The notes under the pieces are model-generated. The model saw only the letters and a program-made list of their open reading frames with translations. It ran no database searches and was not told the DNA's origin. This document shows, piece after piece, positions 242-5,387 of a stretch of DNA of 5,914 nucleotides (the stretch's first letter is position 1; each line of letters opens with the position of its first letter). Source of the DNA: a bacterium (GTDB lineage Bacteria > Verrucomicrobiota > Verrucomicrobiae > Opitutales > Opitutaceae). Where the stretch lies: the NCBI GenBank assembly GCA_021780625.1, contig JAJXYI010000061.1, positions 1 to 5,914 on the forward strand. The letters are read 5' to 3'. A program made the position numbers and the translations under genes.

Positions 242-2383
242 ATGCACTTCATAGGCCTGCTTACCCTCCCGATCATGGCCATGGCGCTGGGCCTGACGTC
301 GCTGTCCGGCGACGAGATCGCGCCGTCCGACAAGAACCACAACCCGCTTCTCGATCCCTGGACCGGCCCCTACGGCGGCGTCCCCCCTTTCGACAAGGTA
401 AGGCTCGAGCAATTCAAACCGGCCTTCGACGTGGCGATCCGCGAAAAGCTCGTGGAGGTGGACGCCATCGCGAATAACCCCGCCGCGCCGACGTTCGAGA
501 ACACATTTGCCGCCCTGGAGAAATCCGGCCGCACGCTCGCACGGGTGAATGCCGTGTTCGGCATCTGGAGCAGCAACCTGTCCACCCCGCAGTTCCAGGT
601 CATCGAGCAGGAGATCGCCCCGCGGCTCGCGGAGCTGTCCGATCGCGTCACGCAGAACGAGGCGCTCTTCAAGCGTATCGAAACGATCTATACCGGCGAC
701 CAGTCCGCCCTCACGCCCGAGCAGAAGCGGCTCGTCTGGTACGTGGCCACGAGCTTCATCCGCCAGGGCGCCAAGCTCGACGCTCCGTCCAAGGCACGTG
801 TCGGCGAGATCAACAAGCGTCTCGCCGTCCTCTACACGACGTTCAGCAACAACGTCCTCGCCGATGAGAACGACTACGTCCTCTACCTGAAGGAGCCCGA
901 CCTCGCCGGCCTTCCGCAGCCCCTGCGCGCCGCCGCCGCTGCAGCCGCCGAGGAACGCGGACACAAGGGGGAATTCGCGATCCTCAACACCCGCTCCTCG
1001 ATGGAGCCTTTCCTCACCTACTCCGACCGCCGCGACCTGCGTGAGAAGGTGTGGCGCACGTATTACAGCCGCGGAGACAACAACGACGCCCACGACAACA
1101 AGCGGATCATCGTCGAGATCCTGAAGCTCCGCGCCGAGCGCGCCCGGCTCCTCGGATTCCCCACCCACGCACACTGGCGGCTCGACGACACGATGGCCCA
1201 CACACCCGAAAACGCGATGACCCTCATGCTCGCGGTCTGGAAACCAGCCGTCGCCCGCGTGCACGAGGAGGTCCGCGACATGCAGGCCGTCGCCAACGCG
1301 GAACACGCCGGGATCACCATCGAAGCCTGGGACTACCGCTATTACGCCGAAAAGGTCCGCAAGGCGCGCTACGACGTCGACGAGAACGAAGTAAAGCCCT
1401 ACCTCCAGCTCGACAAGCTGCGGCAGGCCATGTTCTGGGTCGCCGGTCAGCTCTTCGACTTCGAGTTCGTCCAGGTCCACGACGTTCCCGTGTTCCAGAA
1501 GGACGTCACCGTGTACGAGGTCCGCAACCGCACCACCGGCGCCCACGTGGGCCTGTGGTACTTCGACCCCTACGCCCGCACCGGCAAACGCTCGGGCGCC
1601 TGGATGAACGCCTACCGCGACCAGGAGAAGTTCATGGGGAGCGTCCCAACCATCGTCTCCAACAACTGCAACTACATCCCCGGCGCCCCGGGCGAACCGA
1701 TCCTCATCTCCTGGGACGACGCGACGACCATGTTCCACGAGTTCGGCCATGCACTCCACGGGCTGTGCTCGAACGTCAACTACCCGACCCTCTCCGGCAC
1801 GAACGTCGCGCGTGACTTCGTCGAGTTCCCCTCGCAGCTGCTCGAGCACTGGCTGCCGACGCCCGAGGTGCTCAACCGCTATGCGCTGAACGTGAAGACC
1901 GGCAAACCCATGCCGCCGGAACTGGTGGCCAAGCTCGAGCGCGCCTCCAAGTTCAACGAGGGCTTCGCCACCGTGGAATACCTGGCCGCCGCGCTCTACG
2001 ACATGCAGATCCACCTTGCGGGTGCGGCGACCATCGATCCGGACGCCTTCGAGAAGGCCGAGCTCACGAAACTCGGCATGCCGAAGGAGATCGTGATGCG
2101 CCACCGCCCGACGCAGTTCATGCACATCTTCTCGAGCGACGACTACTCGGCGGGCTACTACAGCTACCTCTGGGCGGATACGCTCACGGCGGACGCCTTT
2201 GAAGCCTTCACCGAAGCCGGCGGCCCCTACGACAAGAAGGAGGCAAAGCGACTGCACGACCTGCTGTTCTCGGTGGGCAACACCGTCGATCCCGCGGCCG
2301 CCTATCGCGCCTTCCGGGGCCGCGACGCCGGCATCGACGCCCTCATGCGCGACCGGGGTTTCCCCGTGCCAACGAAGAGCTAG
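242..2383 (+). CDS. dcp: M3 family zinc metallopeptidase, peptidyl-dipeptidase Dcp type, exported
   Basis: This is a zinc metallopeptidase of family M3A. Enzymes of the Dcp group release C-terminal dipeptides from short peptides. Numbered from ATG 242 the protein has 713 residues, a normal length for Dcp. The zinc site is HEFGH at residues 499-503 (bases 1736-1750), and the third ligand is Glu528 in DFVEFPSQ, 29 residues after the first His, the usual M3 spacing. His628 and the tyrosines of DDYSAGYYSYLW (635-642) fit the transition-state-stabilising segment, and GRDAGIDALMRDRGF is the conserved M3 C-terminus. Other Dcp-like signatures are PTFENT and GAWMNAYRDQ. I chose ATG 242 because a hydrophobic, signal-peptide-like stretch (FIGLLTLPIMAMALGL) follows it at once, pointing to export. 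The n-region has no Lys or Arg, however. An upstream TTG at 176 would add 22 Arg-rich residues, so it cannot be excluded. Neither start has a clear Shine-Dalgarno. The 3' 66 bases recur at 2929-2994, after the toxin-antitoxin pair. An OpdA/PrlC-like oligopeptidase is the alternative, but Dcp fits better. Confidence 0.9.
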   Translation: MHFIGLLTLPIMAMALGLTSLSGDEIAPSDKNHNPLLDPWTGPYGGVPPFDKVRLEQFKPAFDVAIREKLVEVDAIANNPAAPTFENTFAALEKSGRTLARVNAVFGIWSSNLSTPQFQVIEQEIAPRLAELSDRVTQNEALFKRIETIYTGDQSALTPEQKRLVWYVATSFIRQGAKLDAPSKARVGEINKRLAVLYTTFSNNVLADENDYVLYLKEPDLAGLPQPLRAAAAAAAEERGHKGEFAILNTRSSMEPFLTYSDRRDLREKVWRTYYSRGDNNDAHDNKRIIVEILKLRAERARLLGFPTHAHWRLDDTMAHTPENAMTLMLAVWKPAVARVHEEVRDMQAVANAEHAGITIEAWDYRYYAEKVRKARYDVDENEVKPYLQLDKLRQAMFWVAGQLFDFEFVQVHDVPVFQKDVTVYEVRNRTTGAHVGLWYFDPYARTGKRSGAWMNAYRDQEKFMGSVPTIVSNNCNYIPGAPGEPILISWDDATTMFHEFGHALHGLCSNVNYPTLSGTNVARDFVEFPSQLLEHWLPTPEVLNRYALNVKTGKPMPPELVAKLERASKFNEGFATVEYLAAALYDMQIHLAGAATIDPDAFEKAELTKLGMPKEIVMRHRPTQFMHIFSSDDYSAGYYSYLWADTLTADAFEAFTEAGGPYDKKEAKRLHDLLFSVGNTVDPAAAYRAFRGRDAGIDALMRDRGFPVPTKS
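2318..2383 (+). repeat. Upstream copy of duplicated peptidase gene end (direct repeat, left)
   Basis: This is the left member of a direct repeat with a period of 611 bp. Bases 2318-2370 are identical to 2929-2981 over 53 bp. Bases 2371-2383 match 2982-2994 at 9 of 13 positions. The copy encodes the tail of the intact peptidase, from GRDAGIDALM to the TAG stop. The match stops abruptly on its left side: 2316-2317 are GG, against CC at 2927-2928. It contains a small palindrome, CGGGG-TTT-CCCCG (2354-2366), just before the point where the copies start to differ. Confidence 0.92.
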
Positions 2384-2414
2384 GTGGAAGTTCCCTGGCC
2401 CCGCTCACTCCACA

Positions 2415-2443
2415 GGTCCCGACCTTCCTCAACGGTCGGGACC
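2415..2443. promoter_or_regulatory. Perfect 10-bp inverted repeat upstream of hicB
   Basis: GGTCCCGACC (2415-2424) and GGTCGGGACC (2434-2443) are perfect reverse complements around a 9-base loop. The structure begins 31 bases after the peptidase stop and ends 48 bases before the hicB start. No T-run follows, so it is not a canonical intrinsic terminator. It may be a decayed or factor-assisted terminator, an mRNA 3'-end stabiliser, or an operator for the toxin-antitoxin operon. It shares the string CGGTCGGG with the true terminator at 3009-3042. The role is not settled by sequence; the inverted repeat itself is certain. Confidence 0.6.
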
Positions 2444-2491
2444 CAGACATCCCGAGCTTGCGGAGCATGAAATCCAAGGTAGCTTGTAGGC

Positions 2492-2698
2492 ATGAAGTTC
2501 ACCGTGACCATCGATCGTGATGAGGCCGGCGTATGGGTCGCAGAATGCCCGTCAATCCCGGGATGCGTCAGTCAGGGCAAGACCAAACCGGAGGCACTCA
2601 AAAATGTCCGCGAGGCCATCGAACTCTGTCTGGAAGTCCGGGCCGAACGCGGACTCCCGCTAACCATCGAAACAAAGCAGGTTGAAGTCGCTGTCTGA
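2492..2698 (+). CDS. hicB: HicB family antitoxin (short form)
   Basis: This 68-residue protein is a HicB-like (UPF0150) antitoxin, expected to bind and block the HicA toxin encoded next to it. The recognisable core is residues 1-50: an N-terminal beta strand (MKFTVTIDRDEAG), then WVAECPSIPGCVSQGKT, then a helix (KPEALKNVREAIELCLE). This is the partial RNase-H-like fold of the family. The protein ends about 18 residues after that helix, so the C-terminal ribbon-helix-helix or HTH DNA-binding domain of longer HicB proteins is missing. Autoregulation by HicB alone is therefore doubtful. The stop codon overlaps the hicA start by one base (TGATG), which implies translational coupling, and the antitoxin comes first. 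There is no strong Shine-Dalgarno: GTAGG lies immediately before the ATG and AAGG about 13 bases upstream. The gene sits inside the 611-bp unit bounded by copies of the peptidase gene end. Confidence 0.9.
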   Translation: MKFTVTIDRDEAGVWVAECPSIPGCVSQGKTKPEALKNVREAIELCLEVRAERGLPLTIETKQVEVAV

Positions 2699-2925
2699 TG
2701 CCCGTCCTTCCCAAACTGAGCGGACGCTCTGTCGTCAAGGCGTTTGGTCGTGATGGTTGGGAGCTAGCCCGGCAACGCGGCAGCCACATCATTTTAGTGA
2801 AAGAGGGAAACTGGACGACGCTCTCAGTCCCCGATCACCGCGAAATTGCCCCGGGCACCTTGCGAAGCCTCATTCGCGCGAGCGGCCTTTCCGTGGAGAA
2901 ATTTATCGGGCTCACGAAGAAGTGA
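2698..2925 (+). CDS. hicA: HicA family toxin (mRNA interferase)
   Basis: This 75-residue protein is a HicA/YcfA-like toxin. The family has a small double-stranded-RNA-binding-like fold and cleaves mRNA, using a conserved His. Here that residue is in RQRGSHIIL (about residues 26-34), the family's G-S-H motif. The C-terminal half, VPDHREIAPGTLRSLIRASGLS, is the conserved strand-helix segment. The N-terminal LSGRSVVKAFGRDGWEL is the usual first helix, ending in the G-W pair. All key positions are present and the length is normal, so the toxin appears intact. Its ATG shares its A with the TGA of hicB, so the two genes are almost certainly co-transcribed and coupled. Only three bases (CCC) separate its stop from the start of the repeated peptidase tail. 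Neutralisation by the neighbouring HicB is inferred from family knowledge. Confidence 0.9.
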   Translation: MPVLPKLSGRSVVKAFGRDGWELARQRGSHIILVKEGNWTTLSVPDHREIAPGTLRSLIRASGLSVEKFIGLTKK

Positions 2926-2928
2926 CCC

Positions 2929-2994
2929 GGCCGCGACGCCGGCATCGACGCCCTCATGCGCGACCGGGGTTTCCCCGTGCCGACCAAGAGCTGA
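2929..2994 (+). pseudogene. Displaced second copy of the peptidase 3' end
   Basis: These 66 bases repeat the last 66 bases of the peptidase gene and stay in the equivalent frame, encoding GRDAGIDALM...PVPTKS and a stop, with no start or body of their own. The first 53 bp are identical to 2318-2370. The last 13 differ at four positions, all silent: CCA/CCG, ACG/ACC and TAG/TGA. A canonical intrinsic terminator follows 14 bases after this stop, whereas the upstream copy has none. I therefore infer that this is the original end of the peptidase gene, separated from its body by the hicBA unit, and that the upstream copy carries a replacement tail. The reverse origin cannot be excluded from one sequence. 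The duplication itself is directly visible. Confidence 0.9.
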
Positions 2995-3008
2995 TCCGAT
3001 CTCCCTCG

Positions 3009-3042
3009 AAAACGCCCGGCTTACACGGTCGGGCGTTTTTTT
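3009..3042 (+). terminator. Intrinsic (rho-independent) terminator
   Basis: The stem AAAACGCCCG (3009-3018) pairs with CGGGCGTTTT (3030-3039) around an 11-base loop, and the T-run is seven long (3036-3042). It ends transcription from the hicBA side and lies 14 bases after the stop of the displaced peptidase tail. Its proximity suggests it was originally the peptidase gene's own terminator. On the minus strand the same stem is preceded rather than followed by a T-run partner (AAAA at 3009-3012), so a weak reverse activity is possible but not convincing. Confidence 0.92.
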
Positions 3043-3078: not shown

Positions 3079-3217
3079 TTTTAACAGGGATGAAAGGGAT
3101 CGAGGGGATGGATCGATCCACCTTTGGTCCCCAAAAAAACATCCGTTCGATCCTCGATGGATTCCAGCCTTTGGAGTCTTTTCCGTATCCCCTCCATCCC
3201 CTTCATCCCTGTTAAAA
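3079..3217. repeat. 139-bp structure with 31-bp near-perfect terminal inverted repeats
   Basis: Bases 3079-3109 and 3187-3217 are reverse complements at 29 of 31 positions; each begins, from its outer end, TTTTAACAGGGATGAA. The mismatches fall at arm positions 17 and 23. The 77-base interior includes the 12-bp palindrome TGGATCGATCCA (3109-3120) and contains no credible gene. Pairing stops exactly at 3079/3217, and I see no target-site duplication outside it. Neither side has the T-run of an intrinsic terminator. It lies between the hicBA terminator and the convergent ydbL stop, so it could be a bidirectional transcript-end structure, a MITE-like or REP-like repeat, or both. The arms are themselves built of a GGGAT-rich near-repeat, which suggests a dispersed family. 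Confidence 0.8.
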
Positions 3218-3242: not shown

Positions 3243-3611
3243 CTATTTCCGATACCAGCGTCCCGACTGATCCTGCAGCCAGACTCCAGCCTTGCTGATC
3301 TCCGCGATCTTCTGCGCCCGCAACCGGCCCACCGCGTCCGGCGAGGTGCCGGTTTCCTGGGCGATGAGGCGATAGATCACTCCCCGATCGTGATTCTCGG
3401 CGTCGATGACCTGCCGGTCCGCCGCGCTCGCCTGCCCGCGAACCTCCAGGTAGCCCCGGTTGTTCTCCCCCACCACCTGACGCTCTTTCATGGCGTCGAT
3501 CTGGGGCAGGCGCTGGGCCATCGCACGCGCGATGTCGCTACGCTGGTCCGCGAACACCGTGACGGCCATGGCACAAAGGATGACGAAAAAGCTGAGTATT
3601 GAATGCTTCAT
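3243..3611 (-). CDS. ydbL: YdbL family periplasmic protein (DUF1318)
   Basis: This 122-residue protein belongs to the YdbL/DUF1318 family. Residues 1-21 form a signal peptide (MKHSILSFFVILCAMAVTVFA) with probable cleavage before DQ, so the mature protein is periplasmic. The family pattern is clear: VGENNRGYLEVR (47-58), an AENHDRGVIYRLIAQ helix (71-85), a TGTSPDAVGRLRAQKIAE helix (88-104), and the ending GVWLQDQSGRWYRK. In E. coli, YdbL is reported to act on the YdbH-YnbE intermembrane complex, keeping YnbE from forming multimers. The gene is third in the operon, starting 13 bases after the ynbE stop. The frame could be extended upstream to 3671, but that would overlap ynbE and bury the signal peptide behind 20 polar residues, so ATG 3611 is preferred. 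No clear Shine-Dalgarno is visible; translation may be coupled to ynbE. Confidence 0.87.
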   Translation of the reverse strand: MKHSILSFFVILCAMAVTVFADQRSDIARAMAQRLPQIDAMKERQVVGENNRGYLEVRGQASAADRQVIDAENHDRGVIYRLIAQETGTSPDAVGRLRAQKIAEISKAGVWLQDQSGRWYRK

Positions 3612-3624
3612 GACAGGTGGGAGC

Positions 3625-3816
3625 TCAGGGTTTGGTTTCGAGAGTCGATGACTTTTGGTCGAGATTGCCAAAGAAGTCGTTCAGCGCGCGGTCGACCTTC
3701 ACATTCACGTCCACCGTCACATGGATCGGTTTCACTTCGATGGGAGCGGTCCTGACATTCACGCAGCCGGCCAGGAGCAGGGGCATAAAGCAGAACACAG
3801 AGAGGCGGGGATTCAT
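3625..3816 (-). CDS. ynbE: YnbE family outer-membrane lipoprotein
   Basis: This small lipoprotein of 63 residues (E. coli YnbE is about 61) has a hydrophobic signal ending in a lipobox, LLAGC, with the lipidated Cys at residue 18. The mature part is short and beta-rich: PIEVKPIHVTVDVNVKVDRALNDFF. YnbE is known to continue the beta-sheet groove of YdbH and so join it to the outer membrane, and this alternating hydrophobic strand fits that role. The start is ATG 3816. A longer frame from TTG 3864 would put 16 proline-rich polar residues ahead of the signal and is unlikely. The gene lies 62 bases after the ydbH stop and 13 bases before ydbL, in the same order as in E. coli. The first residues after the Cys (VNVRTAP) show no Asp at +2, consistent with sorting to the outer membrane under the E. 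coli rule. Confidence 0.85.
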   Translation of the reverse strand: MNPRLSVFCFMPLLLAGCVNVRTAPIEVKPIHVTVDVNVKVDRALNDFFGNLDQKSSTLETKP

Positions 3817-3878
3817 GTTCGGTTGCGATGGCGGTGGTGCCGATGCGTCGTAGGGATCGCGCAATTGCGGGTGGATGA

Positions 3879-5354
3879 CTACTTCGGCGAAAAATTCATC
3901 CGCGAGTCAAGGCCCCACTGGATAAGCTTTTCCACCGGGCCATTGATATTCACGTCAAAGGTCACCGGCGCCTTGATGGTCGGGTCGATTGGCTGACCCT
4001 CGACGTGAATCTGAACGGAACGCCCCGGGGGGGCATTGAGCGGGTGGATGTCCACACGAAGCGCGTTCACCCGGAGGTTGGTGAGCCCGGTCTCCACGGC
4101 CTTGAGCGTCGGATAGGCCATGCTGTCCGGGGAAACATTCGCCGTCAGCAGGCCCGGTTCCTGCAGCTGGAGCGTGCCGGCCGACCCCGCATGCAGCCCG
4201 AGCCAGCCGCGCCCAAGGCTCAGGCCCTCGGGGCCGTAGTGGACCGCCACTTCACCGTCCGCCTCACCCGTGGCGCGCGCAGTGGCCGTCGGGATCAGCG
4301 CCATGGCCTGGCCAATCTGAAGTCCGGCGACCTCAAACGTCGGCCGGTAATCCACGACCAGCGGATCGAAGGCAAACGGCTCGGCGGAGACGCGCCCTCC
4401 GAAAACTTCCGCCGAGCCCGACTCCAGCTCAATGCGATGAAGTCCCCTCAGTGCAAAGCGGGCATCCACATTGCGTAGTTGAACATCCCCGACACGCACC
4501 GATGCGACCCGGACGCGCTGACCCAAGCGTGAGGTCAGTTTCGCAAGATCGGCGACGGCCACATCCGCCTCAATGCCCTCTACGCTCAGGTGCTTCGCCG
4601 GATTGCTCGCCGCTCCATCGCGCAGCTTCAGATCCAGTTTCCCGTTCATCGGCCCCCCGCCGAATTGTCCGCTTCCAGACAGGTCGATCCTTCCCGAAAC
4701 ATCCCAGCCGGTCAGAACCCCGGGGAGGATCAGGTCCAGCAGGTCGCGGCTGCGCCTCAGGTCGATCGACGAATCTTGGAGCGCGAACCGGCCGGCTGAA
4801 CGCCCGAGGTCGTAGTCCAGCGTGCCCTTGGCGGAAAATGTCTCCCCGGACAGTGCGGCCGCCGCATGTATCAACCTGCCGGTGACATCTGGGCGTGCGG
4901 TGAAATCAATCTGCACGGGTATGCCCGTGTTTCCGACATGCAGCGTCACGGTTCCGCCCACCGAAACCTGGTCGAATCGAGGCCATTCCCGCCCCGGAGC
5001 TGGGGCGGCCGGAATCGCCGGGTTCGCCGCGGGCAATCGCGTCAGATCCACGTCCACCGATAGACCCTTCACGGTGACTCGACCGAGCGATGCGGAAATC
5101 AGATTCGGACGTTCGATGGCCAGCGAGTCCACACGAACACGTTGTCCATGCCACGACAGATCGATCGGTCCGGCCGAAGCGCCATGAAGTCCGACCGCGT
5201 TCACCCGAAGATCCGTGACCTCCAGGCCGGCCCCGACAAACGCATGCCGCAGAGCACAGGAGGCTATCGGACGTCTCCAGACAAGGACGACAGCCAGCCC
5301 CATCCAGCCCAACCCGCCGGATACAGCCAGAAACCACAACAAGCCTCGTCGCAT
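3879..5354 (-). CDS. ydbH: YdbH-like AsmA-family intermembrane phospholipid transport protein (short)
   Basis: This 491-residue protein has one N-terminal membrane segment (residues 4-26, after MRR) and a long periplasmic part of alternating beta-strand sequence, typical of AsmA-like proteins that form a hydrophobic groove between the membranes. YdbH in E. coli works redundantly with YhdP and TamB in moving phospholipids to the outer membrane. Identification rests on the weak but matching C-terminal pattern (conserved-looking LKAVETGLTNLRVNALRVDI, then VEGQ and APVTFDVNI) and, mainly, on ynbE and ydbL following in the canonical order. A Pro/Ala-rich linker lies at about residues 107-124. The protein is little more than half the length of E. 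coli YdbH (about 880 residues), so the groove would be shorter. I chose ATG 5354 because it places MRR just before the membrane helix. TTG 5387 would add 11 residues and is the limit, as a stop lies just upstream (5397-5399). Another DUF748/AsmA member is the alternative. Confidence 0.83.
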   Translation of the reverse strand: MRRGLLWFLAVSGGLGWMGLAVVLVWRRPIASCALRHAFVGAGLEVTDLRVNAVGLHGASAGPIDLSWHGQRVRVDSLAIERPNLISASLGRVTVKGLSVDVDLTRLPAANPAIPAAPAPGREWPRFDQVSVGGTVTLHVGNTGIPVQIDFTARPDVTGRLIHAAAALSGETFSAKGTLDYDLGRSAGRFALQDSSIDLRRSRDLLDLILPGVLTGWDVSGRIDLSGSGQFGGGPMNGKLDLKLRDGAASNPAKHLSVEGIEADVAVADLAKLTSRLGQRVRVASVRVGDVQLRNVDARFALRGLHRIELESGSAEVFGGRVSAEPFAFDPLVVDYRPTFEVAGLQIGQAMALIPTATARATGEADGEVAVHYGPEGLSLGRGWLGLHAGSAGTLQLQEPGLLTANVSPDSMAYPTLKAVETGLTNLRVNALRVDIHPLNAPPGRSVQIHVEGQPIDPTIKAPVTFDVNINGPVEKLIQWGLDSRMNFSPK

Positions 5355-5387
5355 GCCTCGCACGGGCCCCGACCATGGGAGAGGCAA

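Follow-up and report, generated by a model that had tools for sequence, protein, structure and literature searches.

A hicBA toxin–antitoxin operon bracketed by two copies of a peptidase gene end: a probable insertion with long target duplication in an Opitutaceae contig

Introduction

Phage 21 and e14 at icd, like islands at tRNA genes, are accompanied by a duplicated gene end, of which the left copy restores the reading frame with an altered tail, and a circular form of the element is possible. Integron gene cassettes and pdif modules include toxin–antitoxin (TA) pairs bounded by conserved recombination sites of some tens of base pairs, and they can accrete in tandem. Restriction–modification (R-M) systems insert with a long target duplication that is variable and of the order of 100 bp (PMC3874152, PMC3031569, PMC1643837), an insertion form credited to Nobusato et al. 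2000 (Gene 259:99) and Furuta et al. 2010 (cited in PMC1643837, PMC3031569, PMC3874152). Crossovers between the two repeats are expected to amplify such inserts in tandem (PMC3031569). Here, we describe contig JAJXYI010000061.1 of an Opitutaceae bacterium, analysed over its entire 5,914 bases (the window), in which a hicBA operon is found between two copies of the 3′ end of an M3 family peptidase gene.

The window resembles the R-M form of insertion in that an addiction-type complex stands between two copies of a long target stretch. It differs in that the cargo is a half-kilobase type II TA operon instead of an R-M system, in that the window and eight loci of our survey duplicate the 3′ end of a protein or tRNA gene, so that the host gene is kept, and in that the tail at one of these loci, gatA, is foreign and came with the unit. 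With phage 21 and e14 it shares the duplicated gene end, a left copy by which the reading frame is restored and the tail slightly changed, and the possibility of a circular form. In contrast to those elements and to tRNA islands, the unit consists of a TA pair only, with neither an integrase nor any other recombinase, and the target differs per locus, each locus read having a repeat sequence of its own. A TA pair bounded by repeats of tens of base pairs, with tandem accretion being possible, is also what integron cassettes and pdif modules show, but the repeats considered here are the ends of unrelated host genes. An integron attC or a dif site was rejected, the repeat in the window being the coding end of a peptidase gene and the repeats of other loci being unrelated to it. 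Judged by title and the start of the abstract, none of the matches listed in our literature search, from which subscription papers were mostly missing, reports TA pairs with duplicated gene ends.

Results

A hicBA Operon between Two Copies of a Peptidase Gene End

The last 66 bases of the peptidase gene occur twice, 611 bp apart, around hicBA, and the first copy completes the intact gene, ending its open reading frame (ORF) at position 2383 (Table 1), much as the initial annotation had described it. The putative insert is bounded by a long direct repeat of its target, which is the end of the peptidase gene. The peptidase ORF, which could also start at a TTG (176), matches Pfam Peptidase_M3 with an E-value of 4.3e-111, and its best NCBIfam model is Dcp, with 585 bits (under the cut-off of 944). 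A repeat search returned a 64-nt direct repeat (2318–2381 and 2929–2992; 97% identity; 611 nt from start to start), within which a core of 53 nt is identical (2318–2370 = 2929–2981). In the last 13 bases, copy 1 reads CCA and ACG where copy 2 reads CCG and ACC, synonymous differences in Pro and Thr codons, and the stop codons that follow are TAG and TGA, respectively. Copy 2 begins 3 nt past the hicA stop codon; a hairpin and then a T-run follow its end. A chance repeat was rejected, since 62 matches in 64 positions are far outside chance; the sole longer family of direct repeats in the window, D1, is a simple-repeat tract (1–163), while the other thirteen families measure 26 nt or less.

Table 1. 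Features of the window and host sequences duplicated around hicA at survey loci.
Place	Coordinates	Strand	Feature	Basis or remark
Window	242–2383	+	M3 family peptidase gene (Dcp-like), ended by repeat copy 1	ORF list, Pfam/NCBIfam profiles
Window	2318–2383	+	Repeat copy 1, serving as 3′ end of the peptidase ORF, stop TAG (2381–2383)	Sequence reading, repeat search
Window	2384–2491	+	Spacer of the putatively inserted unit, 108 nt; hairpin with 10-bp arms at 2415–2443, without T-run	Reading, fold
Window	2492–2698	+	hicB antitoxin, 68 aa, short form	ORF list, profile
Window	2698–2925	+	hicA toxin, 75 aa	ORF list, profile
Window	2929–2994	+	Repeat copy 2, bodiless 3′ end of the peptidase gene, stop TGA (2992–2994)	Sequence reading, repeat search
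Window	about 3008–3042	+	Hairpin then T-run, presumed original peptidase terminator	Sequence reading, fold
L129/L094			NAD-dependent epimerase family gene, 3′ end	Profile
L114/L089			CAAX-protease-like gene, 3′ end	Profile
L119			gatA, 3′ end	Amidase profile
L126			ORF of no assigned identity, 3′ end	Profile run
L385			Smr-domain gene, 3′ end	Profile
L417			ORF of no assigned identity, 3′ end	Repeat spans stop and AGGAGG shortly before next ATG
L245			tRNA-Leu, 3′ part	Repeat copy begins at anticodon loop
L399			tRNA-His, 3′ part and T-run behind
L134			Start of downstream gene	Gene stays complete
L266			Start of downstream gene	Gene stays complete

The 545 nt between the copies contain hicBA alone, in agreement with the earlier description of a unit that lacks a recombinase, and none was found among the six window ORFs profiled (a subset of the window's ORFs). 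The start of hicA overlaps the stop of hicB by one base. HicB matches HicB_lk_antitox (PF15919) with 36.1 bits and HicA matches HicA_toxin (PF07927) with 62.8 bits (cut-off 27 for either model); by the HicA profile and the adjoining HicB, the pair is assigned to the HicAB type II TA systems, its toxicity and neutralisation being predicted. No match was obtained for HicA in a sequence comparison with the PDB, nor for hicB and hicA with PADLOC.

HicA has 2950 relatives at an E-value of at most 1e-3, and the 120 listed are all at least 76% identical; the best is 96% identical, while the nearest peptidase other than the window's own shows 77% identity. This difference is compatible with a mobile pair but is weak evidence for one, since the short HicA may be under stronger constraint than the peptidase. 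The named HicA matches and one named peptidase match are Opitutaceae metagenome-assembled genomes (MAGs), while another named peptidase match is acidobacterial; by these matches, the host is likely to be verrucomicrobial. Among plasmids, 3 records matched, all with less than 60% identity, and among phages none. In viral contigs, the pattern of the peptidase tail had 0 matches, HicA had no confirmed relative and the peptidase search gave nothing usable.

Direct Repeats Bracket hicA Loci More Often than Mock Positions

The hicA places surveyed belong to the phyla of G002 (in the group of G046, titled Acidobacteria), G004 (Planctomycetaceae) and G052 (Myxococcota); successive listings contributed 65 of 73, 11 of 11, 4 new and 70 of 75 places. 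A hit was defined as a direct repeat scoring at least 22 (match +1, mismatch −2) between the 1100 bp upstream and the 800 bp downstream of the toxin match. Short flanks led to the omission of 8 of 80 loci in Acidobacteriota and Planctomycetota, 4 of 70 in Myxococcota, 9 of 120 in a run with tight geometry and 1 of 40 ParE loci.

In all, repeats bracket 24 of 138 hicA loci, as against 47 of 1769 mock positions (Fisher test, 1.8e-11), with p-values here and below being rough because the mocks overlap and come from the same loci. The excess is seen in Acidobacteriota and Planctomycetota (15/72 versus 34/1181, p 1.9e-8) as well as in Myxococcota (9/66 versus 13/588, p 1.1e-4), and also when copy 2 has to be located within 100 nt of the toxin match (10/111 versus 29/4418, p 1.8e-8). 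A first, smaller survey, the loci of which are contained in the later one, gave 8 of 39 versus 3 of 485. For ParE/RelE toxins in Planctomycetota, the corresponding figures are 4 of 39 and 25 of 598 (p 0.09). Earlier sets, by the score of at least 22 alone, yielded 4 of 30 ParE and 5 of 25 HicA loci; we rely on the larger surveys instead. In four loci (L133, L139, L142 and L143), a contig end is no more than about 400 bases from hicA, which might reflect assemblies broken at surrounding repeats (an observation without a control count).

The Repeats Duplicate Unrelated Gene Ends

Twenty of the 24 hits were read (L240, L255, L359 and L392 being unread). Eight of them duplicate the 3′ end of the upstream gene (six protein genes and two tRNAs) and two the start of the downstream gene, while the remaining 10 are non-coding, dispersed or ambiguous. 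In the six protein-gene cases, the upstream gene and hicBA are co-directional, and copy 1 supplies the end of that gene. We take the gene with the amidase profile to be GatA; the two downstream genes are presumably hypC-like (L134) and kinase-like (L266), as judged by motifs. The period of the eight 3′-end cases is 541–909 bp, though the survey geometry permits about 2 kb. An identical or near-identical core that gives way to a diverged but coding tail occurs in the window, in L119 (AGI/ANI before the stop), in L129 (QST/KSA before the stop), in L385 and in L114; the agreement between the copies extends through the stop codon in L126 and L417.

A dispersed repeat is the likely reading of hits such as L117, L260 and L246, which were left out of the gene-end count. 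Two further hits are ambiguous and uncounted: in L118, copy 1 contains the stop of an ORF, but the copies enclose a MazE-like ORF and copy 2 is diverged, and in L370 it is a minus-strand frame that ends in copy 2. L130 was dropped as a tRNA-end duplication, as ARAGORN finds no tRNA in it.

L126 (reverse complement, 479–1653) has three copies of its host gene's tail, at 479, 1020 and 1596, with hicBA between the first two tails and, between the second and the third, a HicB-like antitoxin reading interrupted by two Ns. This looks like repeated use of one gene end, in a short MAG contig that needs checking. A tRNA-like 3′ fragment, recognised by eye only, precedes the third copy. Outside the hicA survey, the ParE/RelE-type locus L239 shows the same scar with another TA family: its toxin lies between two copies of a gene's 3′ end, near 926 and 1882. 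The duplicated end is longer than 110 bp; the repeat scores 90 over 114 bp, and the copies go on matching past it.

The repeat sequences are unrelated between the loci read. The recurrence of hicBA flanked by duplicated gene ends at unrelated genes thus bears out one part of the element proposed by the initial annotation, one that targets gene ends, while the specific attachment site that it implied is not supported, the repeats differing at each locus read. The analogy with phage 21 at icd, likewise, fits the anatomy of the window, but not those loci where gene starts and non-coding stretches are duplicated in the same manner.

These data bear on the idea that the unit is a remnant or passenger of an integrase system, i.e., a phage, island or satellite reduced to hicBA, or a hicBA moved in trans. 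Gene and tRNA 3′ ends are the classical places of attachment, the copy in tRNA-Leu begins at the anticodon loop as it does with many integrases, and copy 1 in the window restores the gene with a slightly altered tail, as in phage 21 and e14. Yet the 545 nt hold hicBA alone and the other 3′-end periods also leave little room for anything else, the repeats of different loci have nothing in common and some of them are gene starts or non-coding DNA, and the viral contigs yielded the negative results given above. We consider such an origin improbable.

A second account requires no mobility of hicBA at all. Small inserts at any gene could acquire flanking duplications, by homology-facilitated or other illegitimate recombination or by template switching; recombination between the repeats would then delete them and restore the site, and only addictive modules (TA, R-M) would persist, their deletion being lethal to the cell. 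It would explain TA and R-M systems alike, and the duplications reported or seen are all at addiction modules: R-M systems (PMC3031569 and PMC3874152), hicBA and the ParE/RelE-type locus L239. The repeats differ per locus, so a site-specific enzyme is not indicated. Against this stands the weak enrichment at ParE/RelE loci, which are TA pairs as well, and the fact that the 3′-end periods barely exceed the TA operon, which those of random inserts need not do. Persistence of this kind as the sole explanation seems rather unlikely to us, albeit less so than an integrase remnant.

Empty Sites and a Foreign Gene Tail at Analogous Loci

The initial annotation had called for empty sites among relatives of the window; these are seen at two analogous loci. 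At the tRNA-Leu locus, both of the two close relatives, G019 and G090 (96% and 89% identical, respectively, to the tRNA-Leu genome in the neighbouring DnaJ), carry just one tRNA-Leu and lack any match to HicA or HicB, with G019 also differing by some hundreds of bases on each side of the tRNA. A gatA match was present in 37 of 41 genomes. Among the 30 gatA loci read, 26 are without a HicA or HicB match, two end at a contig end and one is L119's own copy with hicBA (L148); in G840 (L160), a truncated hicB is found about 35 nt past gatA. As to the other hosts, neither HicA nor HicB was matched in any of the 29 epimerase relatives read, and the CAAX-protease-like gene has one distant relative only.

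The gatA tails were compared over 22 loci (L150, having no motif, was dropped). In copy 2 of L119, directly behind hicA, 21 of the 24 bases left of the core match G840 and 11 match L119's own gatA, while the next best relative matches 16; over a longer stretch, 44 of 45 bases agree with G840. Inside the core, copy 2 turns host-like, as a crossover there would give. By these matches, the downstream gatA tail of L119 is demonstrably foreign and points to a G840-like lineage; as it agrees with G840 rather than with its own gatA, it is not a duplication of the host's own gene.

If the gene end had been duplicated in tandem long ago, with hicBA arriving there later, or if it had been duplicated by replication slippage, no element and no transfer would be involved. 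In favour of this reading for the window itself, no close relative of the window locus is among the compared genomes. The enrichment of repeats around hicA over mocks, the foreign tail at gatA and the empty tRNA-Leu sites with one copy only all speak against such a local origin, and we hold it to be very improbable.

Peptidase Ends in Other Genomes

A scan of genome contigs with the peptidase kept 80 loci of 59–70% identity, none verrucomicrobial by title. For 79 of these, all from other phyla, the downstream sequence measured 300 bp or more; no match to HicA or HicB was present in the stretches fetched, nor any copy of the tail (score of at least 17) within 2.5 kb. These distant loci imply that the peptidase end is no general hot spot, and nothing beyond that; the further hicBA pairs that had been envisaged at M3 peptidase ends did not turn up among them.

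Other Features of the Window

A degenerate tandem of CCGACTTCC/CCGACCTCC units occupies positions 1–163. A 'ctgacttctgacttctgac' tract resembling it is located 3′ of hicA in the acidobacterial locus L089 (about 1780–1840). Between the presumed peptidase terminator and a DUF1318 gene lies an inverted repeat (3079–3217; 31-nt arms, 94% complementary, 77 nt apart), which resembles a small hairpin element. On the minus strand (3243–5387), a YdbH-like gene (PF11739), a lipoprotein-looking ORF of 79 aa without a profile match above cut-off and the DUF1318 gene follow in a row, which resembles the ydbH-ynbE-ydbL operon of E. coli. The YdbH-like gene was found in 0 of 48 genomes, in a search without a positive control.

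Discussion

We consider it probable that hicBA, as a small unit, entered the peptidase gene at its 3′ end by recombination in the gene tail, leaving a long target duplication of 66 bp, and that it was then kept by addiction. The left copy would be the working gene end (TAG), and the right copy the old end with its terminator; the insertion would cost little because the peptidase gene stays intact. Foreign DNA consisting of a peptidase tail and hicBA would have recombined in the conserved tail, either as a circle by a single crossover or as a linear piece with tail homology, and copy 1 would be donor sequence in its right-hand part, where the synonymous changes and the other stop codon are located. 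The duplicated tails could then serve as homology arms, through which the unit may be lost, amplified in tandem or passed to a species with the same gene, while toxin addiction would select against loss of the repeat-flanked pair. Once such a scar exists, homologous recombination in the conserved tail could carry the gene tail together with hicBA from one species to another.

For the window itself, the insertion, the crossover and the role of addiction are what we infer, insertion rather than local duplication being argued from the analogous loci because no relative of this locus was seen. Several other observations weigh against the reading just given, besides the shortness and possible constraint of HicA. 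A crossover predicts divergence on both sides of the core; this is seen at gatA only, and the core in the window is identical up to its left boundary. At gatA, copy 1 is not G840-like right of the core, which leaves a relative of G840, at best, as the donor and not G840 itself. No such repeat exists at 114 of the 138 hicA loci, nor within 700 bp on each side of hicAB in E. coli K-12. Of the 24 hits, 14 either lack a clear position at a gene boundary or are unread. Mock positions overlap and were drawn from the surveyed loci themselves (Myxococcota: 40 of 70 loci), and nearly all survey loci come from MAG contigs.

A site-specific system for these units is unlikely because the repeats differ between loci and the window unit has no recombinase, although the neighbourhoods were not searched with recombinase profiles. 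As gene starts and non-coding stretches are also duplicated, the pattern resembles insertion with a long target duplication and not a site-specific element. What stands of the earlier reading is an addiction module that would preserve its host gene without a recombinase, with a foreign gene tail in one analogue, gatA; the specific attachment site finds no support.

The sequences compared suggest that TA pairs can slip into gene ends without breaking the genes, which bears on the open question of how chromosomal TA pairs spread with no visible mobile-element machinery. If a pair flanked by a duplicated gene end is a recurrent scar, insertions could be recognised and dated by it, their excision measured and donors traced, as at gatA. 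TA pairs would then join R-M systems among the genes whose insertion leaves a long target duplication. More tentatively, and in our estimate somewhat unlikely, HicBA-type operons may be minimal mobile units free of any recombinase, with a slice of a conserved host gene's 3′ end as their sole targeting sequence, through which they would recombine into that gene in other species and leave it unbroken, accreting in tandem and kept by addiction; if so, core-genome gene ends would act as landing pads shared between species.

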